Of a DNA stretch of 43,311 nt, positions 19,262-29,925 are shown piece after piece (position 1 is the stretch's first letter; every line of letters begins with the position of its first letter). This DNA is from Bacillus sp. FJAT-45037 (lineage in GTDB: Bacteria > Bacillota > Bacilli > Bacillales > Bacillaceae_D), in contig NZ_KZ454938.1 of NCBI RefSeq assembly GCF_002797325.1, positions 1 through 43,311 of the forward strand, in the 5' to 3' direction. The position numbers and the translations under genes are program-made. The notes under the pieces are model-generated. The model saw only the letters and a program-made list of their open reading frames with translations, was not told the DNA's origin and ran no database searches.

Positions 19262-20902
19262 ATGGCTAAGGATATTAAATTTAGCGAAGACGCACGTCGA
19301 TCAATGCTACGTGGTGTAGATGCACTAGCAAACGCGGTAAAAGTAACACTTGGACCAAAAGGGCGTAATGTCGTTCTTGAGAAGAAGTTTGGTTCACCGT
19401 TAATTACAAATGATGGTGTAACGATTGCAAAGGAAATTGAGCTTGAAGATGCATTTGAAAACATGGGCGCGAAGCTTGTTGCTGAGGTAGCAAGTAAGAC
19501 GAACGACATCGCTGGTGACGGTACAACGACGGCAACGGTTCTTGCTCAAGCAATGATCCGCGAAGGTCTTAAGAACGTAACATCTGGTGCGAACCCAATG
19601 GTGATTCGTAAAGGAATCGAAAAAGCAACAGCTGCTGCAGTAGCTGAACTTAAGTCAATTTCTAAACCAATCGAAGGTAAAGAATCGATTGCACAAGTTG
19701 CTGCGATCTCTTCAGCTGATGAAGAAGTTGGTCAAATCATTGCAGAGGCGATGGAGCGTGTTGGTAACGATGGTGTCATCACAATTGAAGAGTCTAAAGG
19801 TTTCTCAACAGAGCTAGAAGTTGTAGAAGGTATGCAATTCGATCGTGGATATGCATCTCCTTATATGGTGACAGACTCTGATAAGATGGAAGCTGTTCTT
19901 GATAATCCTTACATTCTTATTACAGATAAGAAGATTGCTAACATTCAAGAAGTCCTTCCTGTATTAGAGCAAGTTGTTCAACAAGGTAAGCCGATCTTAA
20001 TCATCGCTGAAGATGTTGAAGGTGAAGCTCTTGCAACACTTGTTGTAAATAAATTACGTGGTACATTCAATGCAGTAGCAGTAAAAGCTCCTGGATTTGG
20101 TGACCGTCGTAAGTCTATGCTTGAAGATATCGCGACGCTAACTGGTGGTGAAGTGATTACAGAAGATCTAGGTTTAGACCTTAAATCTGCAAACATCACT
20201 CAACTTGGTCGTGCTGCTAAAGTTGTTGTAACAAAAGAAAACACAACAATCGTCGAAGGTGCAGGCGAGTCAGATCAAATCGCTGCACGTGTAAACCAAA
20301 TTAAAGGTCAATTAGAAGAAACAACTTCTGACTTCGATAAAGAAAAACTACAAGAGCGCCTAGCTAAGCTTGCTGGCGGTGTAGCGGTTCTTAAAGTTGG
20401 TGCTGCAACAGAGACTGAAATGAAAGAGCGCAAGCTTCGTATTGAAGATGCTCTTAACTCAACTCGTGCAGCAGTTGAAGAAGGAATTGTAGCTGGTGGT
20501 GGTACAGCGCTTGTTAACGTCATCCGAGCAGTTCAAGCGGTATCTGCTGAAGGCGACGAAGCAACAGGTGTGAACATCGTTCTTCGTGCACTTGAAGAGC
20601 CGGTTCGTCAAATTGCACATAATGCTGGTCTTGAGGGTTCTGTAATTGTTGAACGTCTTAAGTCTCAAGAAGTAGGCATTGGTTTCAACGCATCAACTGG
20701 CGAGTGGGTAAACATGGTTGAAGCAGGAATCGTTGACCCAACTAAAGTTACACGTTCAGCTCTTCAACATGCGGCAAGTGTATCTGCTATGTTCTTAACA
20801 ACAGAAGCTGTAATCGCTGAGAAGCCTGAGGAAAACGAAGGCGGCGGCATGCCTGATATGGGCGGCATGGGCGGTATGGGTGGAATGGGCGGCATGATGT
20901 AA
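19262..20902 (+). CDS. groEL: Chaperonin GroEL
   Basis: 546 residues from the ATG at 19262 (homologues start [12 protein letters not shown]); an ATG directly before it is less well spaced from AGGAGGT. 60-kDa chaperonin with [25 protein letters not shown] (ATP site) and the C-terminal GGM repeats ([13 protein letters not shown]). The last codons and stop form the left copy of the 17-base direct repeat that bounds the island downstream, so the reading frame is intact despite the insertion. Confidence 0.98.
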
Positions 20903-20903
20903 T
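20887..20903 (+). repeat. Left attachment-site core (attL) in the groEL 3' end
   Basis: GGGCGGCATGATGTAAT, covering the last codons and stop of groEL. It recurs exactly at 29909-29925, where there is no groEL. Confidence 0.8.
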
Positions 20904-20943
20904 CTGCCCCTTAAACCCTTGATATGACTGGGTGTTGTAGTAA

Positions 20944-20963
20944 TTTGCTAACAAAATGCTAAC
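20944..20963 (+). repeat. Left arm-type direct repeat pair
   Basis: TTTGCTAAC (20944-20952) and ATGCTAAC (20956-20963), GCTAAC units 11 bases apart, one helical turn. Matches the pair at 29773-29789. Confidence 0.65.
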
Positions 20964-20990
20964 ATTGTTAAAAGTATAGTGCTTATTTTT

Positions 20991-21034
20991 AGAGCTTCTC
21001 AAAGGTGGATAAACCTTTGGGAAGCTTCTTTTTC
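20991..21034 (+). terminator. Terminator after groEL, inside the island
   Basis: Stem GAGCTTCTCAAAGG / CCTTTGGGAAGCTTC followed by TTTTT. It stands in for the groEL terminator displaced to the right end of the island. Confidence 0.85.
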
Positions 21035-21111
21035 ATTTAAATAGTCATTTTGTGATTAGTTTTCTGAATGACTTAATTGAATCAATTTCATAAAGCCCAA
21101 ATCAAAGTGCC

Positions 21112-28167: not shown

Positions 28168-28184
28168 ACAAAGGGGGGAATAAT

Positions 28185-29186
28185 TTGAAGAAATTAATGT
28201 TTATATTCATGACCATTTTCTTCGTTGGGTTAAATTCCTCTAAAGTCGATGCGGTTTTTACAAGTGAAGCATCTTTCAGTTCAAATTTCATAAAAACTGC
28301 AACGACAGCGGAATTACTAGAGTACACTATTACCGATATACAATACAAAGAGAGAGGAACAGTTCTTGCTAATTTGAATTTACACAATAAAATTAATAAT
28401 TCAATTCCTATAGAAATCAAGGCCTTAAACATAGTAACTAGTCAGAATAGTTTCTCTCTATCTCCAAATTCTTCTGAAACTATTAAACTGGAACTAGTAG
28501 TTCCCAATGGTCAATTTGAGAAGGTTAATAACAATTTACAACTGATTGGATTTTCTGGTGGGTATATTAATGATGCCATCACTCTAGAATTGGATGAGAA
28601 AATTTTGGTATATGCAGAAGAAGTAGAGGAAGTGCTACCAGAAATAAGTCAAACTAAAGACGGTGCTATTAGTAGTGACGGTGAGTTTAACGAAGTTACT
28701 AATAATGAAGCATCAACGAATGCACCATATTTAAATGAGGAAAAATTAAGCTTAGAAAAATTATCTTCGACTGAACAAGAAACAGAAAGTACAAATAGTG
28801 AAATCGCAGAAATCGATCAAGATAATGAAATAGTAAAGGAACAAGAAGAAACTCTTTTATTATCAAGCGTTTCATTAGATGACCGAGGTAGTGATGAAGC
28901 AGAGAAGCCGTCATGTTCTTTTGGTGATGTTACAAAGGGAAGTAATGAGGGTATAAATAGTGAAGAAATAGACGAAAAAATACTTGAAGAAGAAGCAAAG
29001 ACTGGTGACTGTATCGGAGAAGAACCTGAAAAGGTCGAAGAAGAGCAGCAGAACACTAAAACAGAAGCTCTTGAAGAGAGTGCTATCCGAGAAAGTAAAG
29101 CGACGATTACAGAAGATAGCGAACTAAAAGAACCTTCAGAGCTAGAAAAAAACGAATTAAATAAAGAGTTACCAGGGAGTAAATAA
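28185..29186 (+). CDS. Secreted SipW-type substrate with long acidic C-terminal tail
   Basis: 333 residues from TTG 28185, which follows AAAGGGGGGAA; upstream in-frame codons back to 28134 lie in the terminator hairpin and are unlikely to be translated. Signal peptide to about VDA (21-23), then AVFTSEASFSSNFIKTATTA, which resembles the start of mature camelysin-type SipW substrates. Residues about 45-155 form a beta-type domain (LELVVPNG). From about 160 the chain is low-complexity and very rich in Glu, Ser, Thr and Asn, with two cysteines (SCSFGD and TGDCIGEE). No sorting motif or C-terminal helix. By position it may be a TapA-like accessory or anchor of the fibre. Confidence 0.7.
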   Translation: MKKLMFIFMTIFFVGLNSSKVDAVFTSEASFSSNFIKTATTAELLEYTITDIQYKERGTVLANLNLHNKINNSIPIEIKALNIVTSQNSFSLSPNSSETIKLELVVPNGQFEKVNNNLQLIGFSGGYINDAITLELDEKILVYAEEVEEVLPEISQTKDGAISSDGEFNEVTNNEASTNAPYLNEEKLSLEKLSSTEQETESTNSEIAEIDQDNEIVKEQEETLLLSSVSLDDRGSDEAEKPSCSFGDVTKGSNEGINSEEIDEKILEEEAKTGDCIGEEPEKVEEEQQNTKTEALEESAIRESKATITEDSELKEPSELEKNELNKELPGSK

Positions 29187-29217
29187 CACCTATATTTAAG
29201 GGTTATCTATTTTTTTA
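29183..29217 (+). terminator. Probable terminator of the island fibre genes
   Basis: Imperfect stem ATAACACC / AGGGTTAT followed by CTATTTTTTT. Confidence 0.5.
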
Positions 29218-29770
29218 GTGCAGTTAAAAGGTGTTGTTGATTTTGGATTCATTTCATTCTAATTTTCAACCGTTCAGTTCTAGAATGGCGTGTGAAGCTA
29301 CCGTTTCAAACGATGAGCCCGAAATTATTTGATATCAACAGTATCCTTTAACACATCCTTTAGCTTTATCCTAATAATACCAACTTAACAAAACTTTCAC
29401 ACTTAGTTTTCAAACATTTTAGGTTCTCCTTTTTTGCTTGTTTAGTATTCAATTAGATTGGGAGGTCAGACAACGATAAAAAATTGCACATCTAACAAAG
29501 ACAATTCCGGCTAAAGAAATATATATATTGCGTCAGAAACCACGTTTTACAGTGTTTATCGCAAAGGAAAGATTGAACACCATCGTGGGCGTAGCCTAAA
29601 GCCAACTCGAAGAAATCTCCTTAGTATAATAGGGGCAAACGGGGACACTTTTGGAATTAACAAAATAATGGACAAATTATCAATTAAGAAATCGGGACAA
29701 ATTAAGGATAAAATTATTTATTACACAATAGAATCTTAACATCTATTACAGTCCTTTAATCCAAAACGCA

Positions 29771-29789
29771 TTGCTAACATTTTGCTAAC
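29771..29789 (+). repeat. Right arm-type direct repeat pair
   Basis: TTGCTAAC and TTGCTAAC, GCTAAC units starting at 29773 and 29784, 11 bases apart as in the left pair. Confidence 0.65.
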
Positions 29790-29908
29790 GCAATCTAATG
29801 AAGAACGGTTAAATCCCGTTAAAGATTTCACAGTAAGATCTTAACAAAACCTTGAGATTCCGCACGTTTAGCACACCAGGTTAAAGATATTACACACTCC
29901 CACCATAG

Positions 29909-29925
29909 GGGCGGCATGATGTAAT
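29909..29925 (+). repeat. Right attachment-site core (attR)
   Basis: GGGCGGCATGATGTAAT, identical to the groEL 3' end at 20887-20903. Upstream of it the sequence is unrelated to groEL, so this is a displaced copy. Confidence 0.8.

Follow-up and report, generated by a model that had tools for sequence, protein, structure and literature searches.

The window analysed here is a 43,311-nucleotide stretch of Bacillus sp. FJAT-45037 (contig NZ_KZ454938.1) in which groEL is directly followed by a 9-kb island (20887–29925) that is bounded by two copies of the groEL end and that, by its ends, belongs with tyrosine-integrase elements. The features at groEL, at both island ends and in the right flank are listed below (attL and attR, left and right attachment sites).

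19259–20902, plus strand: groEL, an open reading frame (ORF) matched in relatives, whose last 16 bp make up most of the attachment core
20887–20903, plus strand: left core copy (attL), exact 17-mer
20904–20990, plus strand: left arm of the element (P′ side) with the GCTAAC pair 20947–20963, from the nhmmer attL model
20992–21038, plus strand: predicted intrinsic terminator behind groEL, hairpin 20992–21027 plus T-tract (dG −23.6)
20999–21034, minus strand: relict integrase C-terminus antisense to the left terminator, EKEASQRFIHL and then a stop
29759–29908, plus strand: right arm of the element (P side) with the GCTAAC pair 29773–29789 and two GTTAAAGAT-type repeats, from the nhmmer model
29909–29925, plus strand: right core copy (attR), exact 17-mer
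29926–30029, plus strand: probable relict arm of an older element, pair TTGACCAC/TTGGCCAC at 29990 and 30001
30030–30069, no strand assigned: older terminator, 9 kb from groEL; antisense 30040–30069 reads KKAPHKFMNL, a probable older integrase tail

The 17-bp core GGGCGGCATGATGTAAT occurs exactly at 20887–20903 and 29909–29925; its left match begins 16 bases ahead of the groEL end, and the groEL reading frame is undamaged. No further match turned up in the window with three mismatches allowed, nor in the 3.37-Mb assembly with two allowed, and none of 100 shuffles contained two matches. Inside each core lies a pair of GCTAAC motifs (20947–20963 and 29773–29789) spaced 11 bp start to start, against an expectation of 0.02. 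Both ends were also recognized by nhmmer profiles drawn from other genomes: the left end (20888–21038) by an attL profile of 63 sites, running from the core through the integrase tail at groEL-site integrase loci of named genomes (81.7 bits, E = 8e-25), and the right inner end (29759–29924) by a profile of six element ends from five genomes, two of them near-identical (141.2 bits, E = 6e-43). The initial annotation had read the locus as a site-specific tyrosine-integrase insertion at the groEL 3′ end, citing an exact groEL-end copy at 29909–29925, GCTAAC pairs 11 bases apart inside both ends and an intact groEL frame, and on each of these points it holds. A chance or repeat-family origin of the 17-mer is ruled out by its uniqueness together with the right-arm profile match. 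Entry through IS1182 or homologous recombination, with the repeat arising by chance or duplication, would account for the broken IS1182 inside the left end, but it is extremely improbable: an exact 17-bp repeat is not expected by chance, both arms are common to other elements at the groEL site, and ~250 bp separate the left core from the start of the insertion sequence (IS) reading frame. Whether of the GCTAAC or the GGTAAC type, right arms, including that of the window (29759–29908), additionally hold two GTTAAAGATRTTACA-like copies, possibly excisionase or host-factor sites. In a viral collection, GGCATGATGTAATCTGCCCC and GCTAACATTTTGCTAACGCAATC had no match, and the single match of GGGGCGGCATGATGTAAT lay inside an ORF of a phage-like contig and was judged to be chance.

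The island contains no integrase ORF, and tblastn against the window gave nothing below E 2.2 for five integrase queries, of which four come from groEL sites or have a groEL-like core and one is a second integrase. The DNA profile, however, picked up a relict integrase tail. The left terminator matches the antisense of the integrase's last codons, so that the earlier statement that no integrase remains is correct for the gene but not for an antisense scrap of its C-terminus. Rfam at gathering scores returned nothing in the island. The insert is thus a stretch flanked by a direct repeat of the target-gene end, with arm-type repeats inside both ends that are common to integrase-bearing elements, and with attL and attR retained while the integration genes are gone, as in a cis-mobilizable element (CIME); judged from these ends, 20887–29925 is a CIME-like tyrosine-integrase element in the groEL end, without an integrase gene. 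Since that gene is absent, the island could move only with a matching integrase from elsewhere, and it may be mobilisable in trans; none of the 16 PF00589 matches in its own genome is of groEL type, the best long match to a groEL-type integrase reaching 33.5% over 391 aa. The G+C content, taken in 1-kb steps, is 0.31–0.35 across 22.5–29.5 kb versus 0.36–0.43 in the 20 kb preceding groEL, in line with the AT-rich cargo described initially, but the IS1182 stretch (21–22.5 kb) is not AT-rich (0.41). Low values (0.33–0.37) continue to the right of the island up to ~31.5 kb.

Beyond this genome, the groEL 3′ end reads as an integration hot spot. A groEL-end 15-mer was found in 31 of 41 host-family genomes, and 11 of the 41 have another copy of it on the same strand, 2.3–52.9 kb further downstream than groEL, Bacillus sp. 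FJAT-45037 being included in both counts; the sequence just inside the second core copy is common to several of these genomes. The 52.9-kb case contains a convergent integrase and phage-type replication genes (the latter by eye), and groEL-site elements range from small islands to this prophage-like size. Intact integrases adjoin groEL in convergent orientation, as G009 and G031 illustrate. With the G009 integrase as query, named genomes yielded 84 relatives, of which the best 80 loci were retained; by title, most are Bacillales. In 66 of these 80 the core follows integrase tails, 68 in total, at a stop-to-core distance of 82–83 nt in 42 of the 68; groEL comes directly after in 48. A survey of 65 groEL-downstream regions from 64 genomes yielded an attL match within 400 nt in 40 regions and a repeat of at least 7 bp with a period of 10–12 bp in 22; one of the 22 (G015) is a T-rich terminator, and the others lie ~40–75 nt from the groEL stop. 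The arm repeats differ in sequence (TGCTAACA, GGTAACA, CTACATTT, TTGTCCTC and others, with TTGGTGCC, ACTAACAT and TTTTGACCAC as further types), and the integrases of G009, G031, Geobacillus phage GBSV1 and an S. aureus phage record, each found at a groEL site or followed by a groEL-like core, share 38–54% pairwise identity. The end of a protein-coding housekeeping gene had been called a less common attachment site; the groEL 3′ end is used frequently as attB in the family, and such use has been published for staphylococci (PMC8125051).

Several further arrangements were seen at these loci. A second integrase is present in 12 of the 80 (L096, L098, L099, L101, L102, L104–L107, L110, L118 and L130), 52–61% identical to the query, 0.5–4.7 kb upstream on the same strand and with no core after it; a GAAAGC...GCTTTC hairpin stands behind several of these second genes, and the two-integrase arrangement may be common among groEL-type elements. 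At L113 (1672–4402, Salirhabdus euzebyi), AAA-ATPase-like and helicase-like genes, identified by eye, adjoin the groEL integrase, and we take them to be a possible defence pair, Gabija-like. In the islands of G024, G026, G032 and G034 (L077–L081), the groEL stop is TGA at the left copy, while the right copy has TAA in the first three genomes and TGA in G034; insertion seems to rewrite the groEL stop codon in islands of this type.

In intact elements, the last integrase codons form, on the groEL strand, a hairpin followed by TTTTTT, the T-run being the antisense of two lysine codons. Across 24 intact genes the last 18 codons fold on the groEL strand at −21.0 to −24.3 kcal/mol, whereas synonymous shuffles of the same tails fold at about −7 kcal/mol (mean z −4.7). 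Shuffles as low as the real tail numbered 0 of 300 in 23 genes and 1 of 300 in the remaining one, and in 23 of the 24 integrases the tail outranks every other stretch of the gene in stability. Of 27 full-length genes, 26 have a U-tract on the groEL strand; none of the 26 scored for the integrase strand has one there, and the hairpin, too, is stronger on the groEL strand (−20.7 to −22.1 versus −10.5 to −15.3 kcal/mol). The tail has a synonymous codon entropy of 0.36 bit, compared with 1.12 elsewhere, and a value as low is reached in 2 of 213 windows. The S. aureus phage record contains a SaPI-type (S. aureus pathogenicity island) integrase that is followed by a groEL-end-like core and behaves in the same way (z −5.4, 0/300). 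No signal was detected in the tails of the 12 second integrases without a following core at the same loci (z −1.85 to +1.08), of the phage Tripp integrase (z +1.7) or of six phage integrases from the homolog list (z −1.4 to +2.0; six of eight scored, phiMH1 and phiRS7 being left out for N or frame). The integrase-tail alignment is too conserved for judging covariation. When the tail model was run on large control DNA, the loci concerned contained further integrase tails; a cleaner 280-kb control gave three matches of at least 14 bits, located at one homologous place in two genomes. The integrase tail may terminate groESL transcripts in vivo.

Two other origins of this double coding were weighed. 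The hairpin could be a by-product of the conserved integrase C-terminal peptide, with no groEL role, and indeed the peptide KKEASQKF-ELMRSL is itself conserved, and the integrases of phages HB10c2 and C7Cdelta have tail hairpins without a groEL-like core. Yet the tail hairpins far exceed their synonymous alternatives, with the synonymous codons frozen; the U-tract occurs on the groEL strand only, where the hairpin is also stronger; and GBSV1 has a separate hairpin in the same stretch instead. We regard the by-product explanation as very doubtful. Somewhat less so, but still unlikely, is the opposite direction of borrowing, in which the integrase tail was captured from the host groEL terminator and not the host terminator from the integrase: the groEL terminators of G012, G014 and G057, with few or no other element traces, read partly tail-like, and a palindromic terminator codes alike in both directions, but, judged by eye, groEL terminators are highly diverse in genomes that lack attL matches (G004, G010, G015, G025, G029, G043 and G059), and the left terminator of the window follows an integrase arm at attL spacing.

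Decayed loci are informative about whether such a tail is kept. Of the best 80 loci, 71 were scored (6 were left out at contig edges and 3 as distant): 41 retain both integrase ends, 28 the C-terminal end alone, none the N-terminal end alone and 2 neither. Since all but one of the six search patterns are placed upstream of the tail, N-terminal remnants would have been expected to turn up. Among the 40 attL matches, 15 continue into an integrase and 3 end before model column 140; 16, the window among them, end within the 31 columns around the T-tract (140–170), compared with 6 in the next 70 (171–240). These patterns are consistent with selection by the host having kept the tail after decay. 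A new left terminator had been proposed initially; the hairpin is there at 20992–21027, but its source would be a decayed integrase tail.

A second terminator-like hairpin lies beyond the right core, at 30030–30065. This right terminator is 81% identical over 52 bp to the groEL-proximal terminator of G003 and 84% over 44 bp to that of G001, whose groEL-adjacent terminator reads KKAPHKFVQLMRS; given this identity to terminators of the same genus, it probably predates the island and was probably the terminator of groEL before the island arrived. The right flank (29910–30076) also matches the attL profile (29.5 bits, E = 7e-9), and its arm pair resembles TTTTGACCACATTTTGACCAC of GBSV1, which suggests an attL remnant of an older element. 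Because the arms and codons at the right terminator resemble an older attL, the label 'original' given to it initially is valid only relative to this island. One could instead envisage an integrase island with a new left terminator, the host's original terminator beyond the right end and no integrase remnant. The 81–84% similarity to groEL-proximal terminators would suit such a history, and the older-element reading of the flank depends on the 29.5-bit match; nonetheless, both terminators match the integrase-tail/attL model from the core (81.7 and 29.5 bits), and a GBSV1-type arm pair precedes the right one. We accord this history a small probability.

The three same-genus genomes have one core each in the stretches read, and 11–16 kb with other genes lies between groEL and the homolog of the window's gene at 30184. 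Within this interval, two of these genomes have a c-di-GMP-I (cyclic di-GMP) riboswitch (L066 4304–4390 and L067 2040–2126). Two also have a repeat-like insert of ~119 bp (AAGCCGAAGCGAC...CTAGACA) that follows the groEL stop immediately (L066 1716–1834 and the same place in L068), and a similar-looking insert occupies the same position at the start of L178 (G053, another family).

Taken as a whole, the locus is very probably a decayed groEL-site element whose integrase tail acts as terminator, with an older remnant alongside and a surface module as cargo. Under this explanation, a tyrosine-integrase element would have inserted into the last groEL bases. In intact members of the family the integrase gene occupies the groEL-proximal end and points towards groEL, its stop codon lying ~82 nt away from the core, and the opposite strand of its last 18 codons would supply the hairpin and U-tract that end the groESL transcript. 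Insertion would displace the host terminator by kilobases, and the integrase tail would substitute for it. As the element decays, the tail would persist because the host needs a terminator, in the window as 20992–21038. The island would have landed ahead of an older remnant of the same kind (29926–30076), implying at least two insertion rounds, and its cargo would be a self-contained two-component/HD-GYP/SipW/TasA-like surface module. The two ends, the core, the family, the hot spot and the double-coded tail are read from the DNA itself. We lean towards the broader proposition that integrase genes are portable, domesticable terminators, with which elements inserting behind a strongly expressed operon make good the terminator that the host loses, and that the groESL terminators of several Bacillaceae, this genome's included, are integrase remnants.

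A number of observations weigh against this explanation. For the tail, the GBSV1 integrase is not significant (z −1.33, 26/300), the tail model returns low scores for several other attL types, and some stability is seen on the sense strand as well (mean z −2.1; L124 −5.7). The two P. larvae phage integrases of HB10c2 and C7Cdelta have significant tails (z −3.6 and −3.2) with no groEL-like core within 120 nt behind them, so the trait is not confined to groEL. Codon shuffles fix the peptide, and the order peptide-first versus hairpin-first is not distinguishable by them. For retention, the counted genomes are not independent (G032/G034 and G001/G003 share ends), G039, one of the 16 matches ending around the T-tract, still has integrase pieces further on, and the relict tail of the window spans just 11 codons. 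For the right flank, the remnant scores 29.5 bits, and two same-genus genomes possess a terminator not belonging to groEL that is likewise similar to the right one (79% over 39 bp, E = 0.003); at that place the tail model reaches 27.4 bits (L066 6887) and 25.5 bits (L067 4628). With a non-groEL terminator scoring 25–27 bits, a lone short terminator match is weak and no proof; this terminator (L066 6887–6931, L067 4628–4668) may be a chance likeness or another buried remnant. Finally, the exact empty site predicted initially, core plus TCATGCCC, was found in none of the three same-genus genomes.

The cargo between the two ends comprises the following genes.

21155–22298, minus strand: IS1182-family transposase, frame split into two ORFs (NCBIfam NF033551)
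23027–24583, plus strand: sensor histidine kinase (HisKA_3/HATPase_c)
24576–25208, plus strand: NarL/LuxR-type response regulator
25220–26371, plus strand: HD-GYP-like protein (HD_5), N-terminal half hydrophobic
26473–26697, plus strand: small four-cysteine protein, zinc-ribbon-like by eye; ORF, synteny-conserved
26898–27398, plus strand: SipW-like signal peptidase I (TIGR02228, above cut-off)
27433–28095, plus strand: TasA-like exported protein, a remote assignment (NF046066 E 0.015 and TIGR04088 E 0.077, below cut-offs)
28134–29186, plus strand: acidic protein, third of the sipW–tasA-like set (43.5% to G181 over 239 aa, same order)

The SipW-like protein reaches 85 bits against NF046067 (cut-off 190), and the product of 27433–28095 scores 14.7 bits against the curated TasA model (cut-off 450), both below what the curated models set for a TapA–SipW–TasA biofilm operon. 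The TasA assignment of the latter protein is remote; its single-sequence structure model has a predicted local distance difference test (pLDDT) value of 33. It is 34% identical to a second copy in its own genome that adjoins another sipW-like gene, a second and different sipW/tasA-like set being present elsewhere in the genome, and matches to it occur in 9 of the 248 further genomes that were sampled within the order. All seven cargo genes are co-linear in G181, a genome of another family, with 44–82% identity over the aligned parts; within the 20 kb read around that seven-gene module there was no groEL and no exact core. A DNA search did not find the cargo in the three same-genus genomes. Phage-inducible chromosomal islands (PICIs) carry a set of integrase, repressor, replication and packaging-interference genes. 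Scanning the nine island ORFs with Pfam and NCBIfam gave no genes of this set, no phage structural or replication genes and no conjugation genes, just the broken IS transposase. The cargo may represent a module for surface fibres or biofilm, transferable and equipped with its own sensing. Between its genes, a near-perfect 15–17 bp palindrome (26377–26414), terminator-like on both strands, separates the HD-GYP and four-cysteine genes, and ~10 AAT repeats (28093–28125) begin at the TasA-like stop codon.

Integrating elements are known to be capable of rebuilding the coding end of their target gene. Those at the groEL site appear to restore the transcription stop as well, and to do so within their own integrase gene. 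This would give a testable reason why the integrases face their target at a fixed distance and why the tail is kept in decayed islands, and it would make the tail a marker for integrase-less islands behind groEL. It would also mean that an essential operon has recruited mobile-element sequence as a regulatory component, and it would explain the 9-kb foreign segment of the window with its transferable surface-protein module. Integration at the groEL 3′ end is already published for staphylococcal islands; what appears to be new here is the integrase-tail terminator. No report of a terminator inside an integrase gene that serves the target operon and is kept after decay was found in the literature searched, which omitted most subscription journals.

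The closest published counterparts are staphylococcal PICIs (SeCISE48 and relatives), which, as described in PMC8125051, use the groEL 3′ end as their insertion site: the final 18 bp of the gene overlap the attachment site, the gene is left unaltered, and transfer was shown experimentally. The window island resembles them in its insertion into the groEL 3′ end of an unaltered gene; they differ in host, cargo and arms, and the window island is without an integrase and adjoins another, probable remnant. The SaPI-type integrase of the S. aureus phage record is 39–44% identical to three groEL-type integrases. CIMEs of the ICESt1 type retain attL and attR without integration genes and are subject to tandem accretion (PMC5704250). 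The window island is like these CIMEs in that its integration genes are gone, attL and attR are kept and a probable same-site remnant adjoins it; CIMEs derive from integrative and conjugative (ICE) or integrative and mobilizable (IME) elements, and the island is likened to them by these features. Geobacillus phage GBSV1, whose integrase is 99.7% identical to that of phiOH2, has the same 17-mer ~78 nt past the end of its integrase gene, and its TTTTGACCAC arms form a pair that resembles the right flank of the window, but it is a complete phage with a separate hairpin between core and arms and a non-significant integrase tail. In the HK022 prophage, which replaces the torS promoter (PMC6814406, part of the text), an integrated element likewise provides a transcription signal to a neighbouring host gene; there, as that part describes it, the signal is a promoter and not a terminator, and it apparently lies outside the integrase gene.

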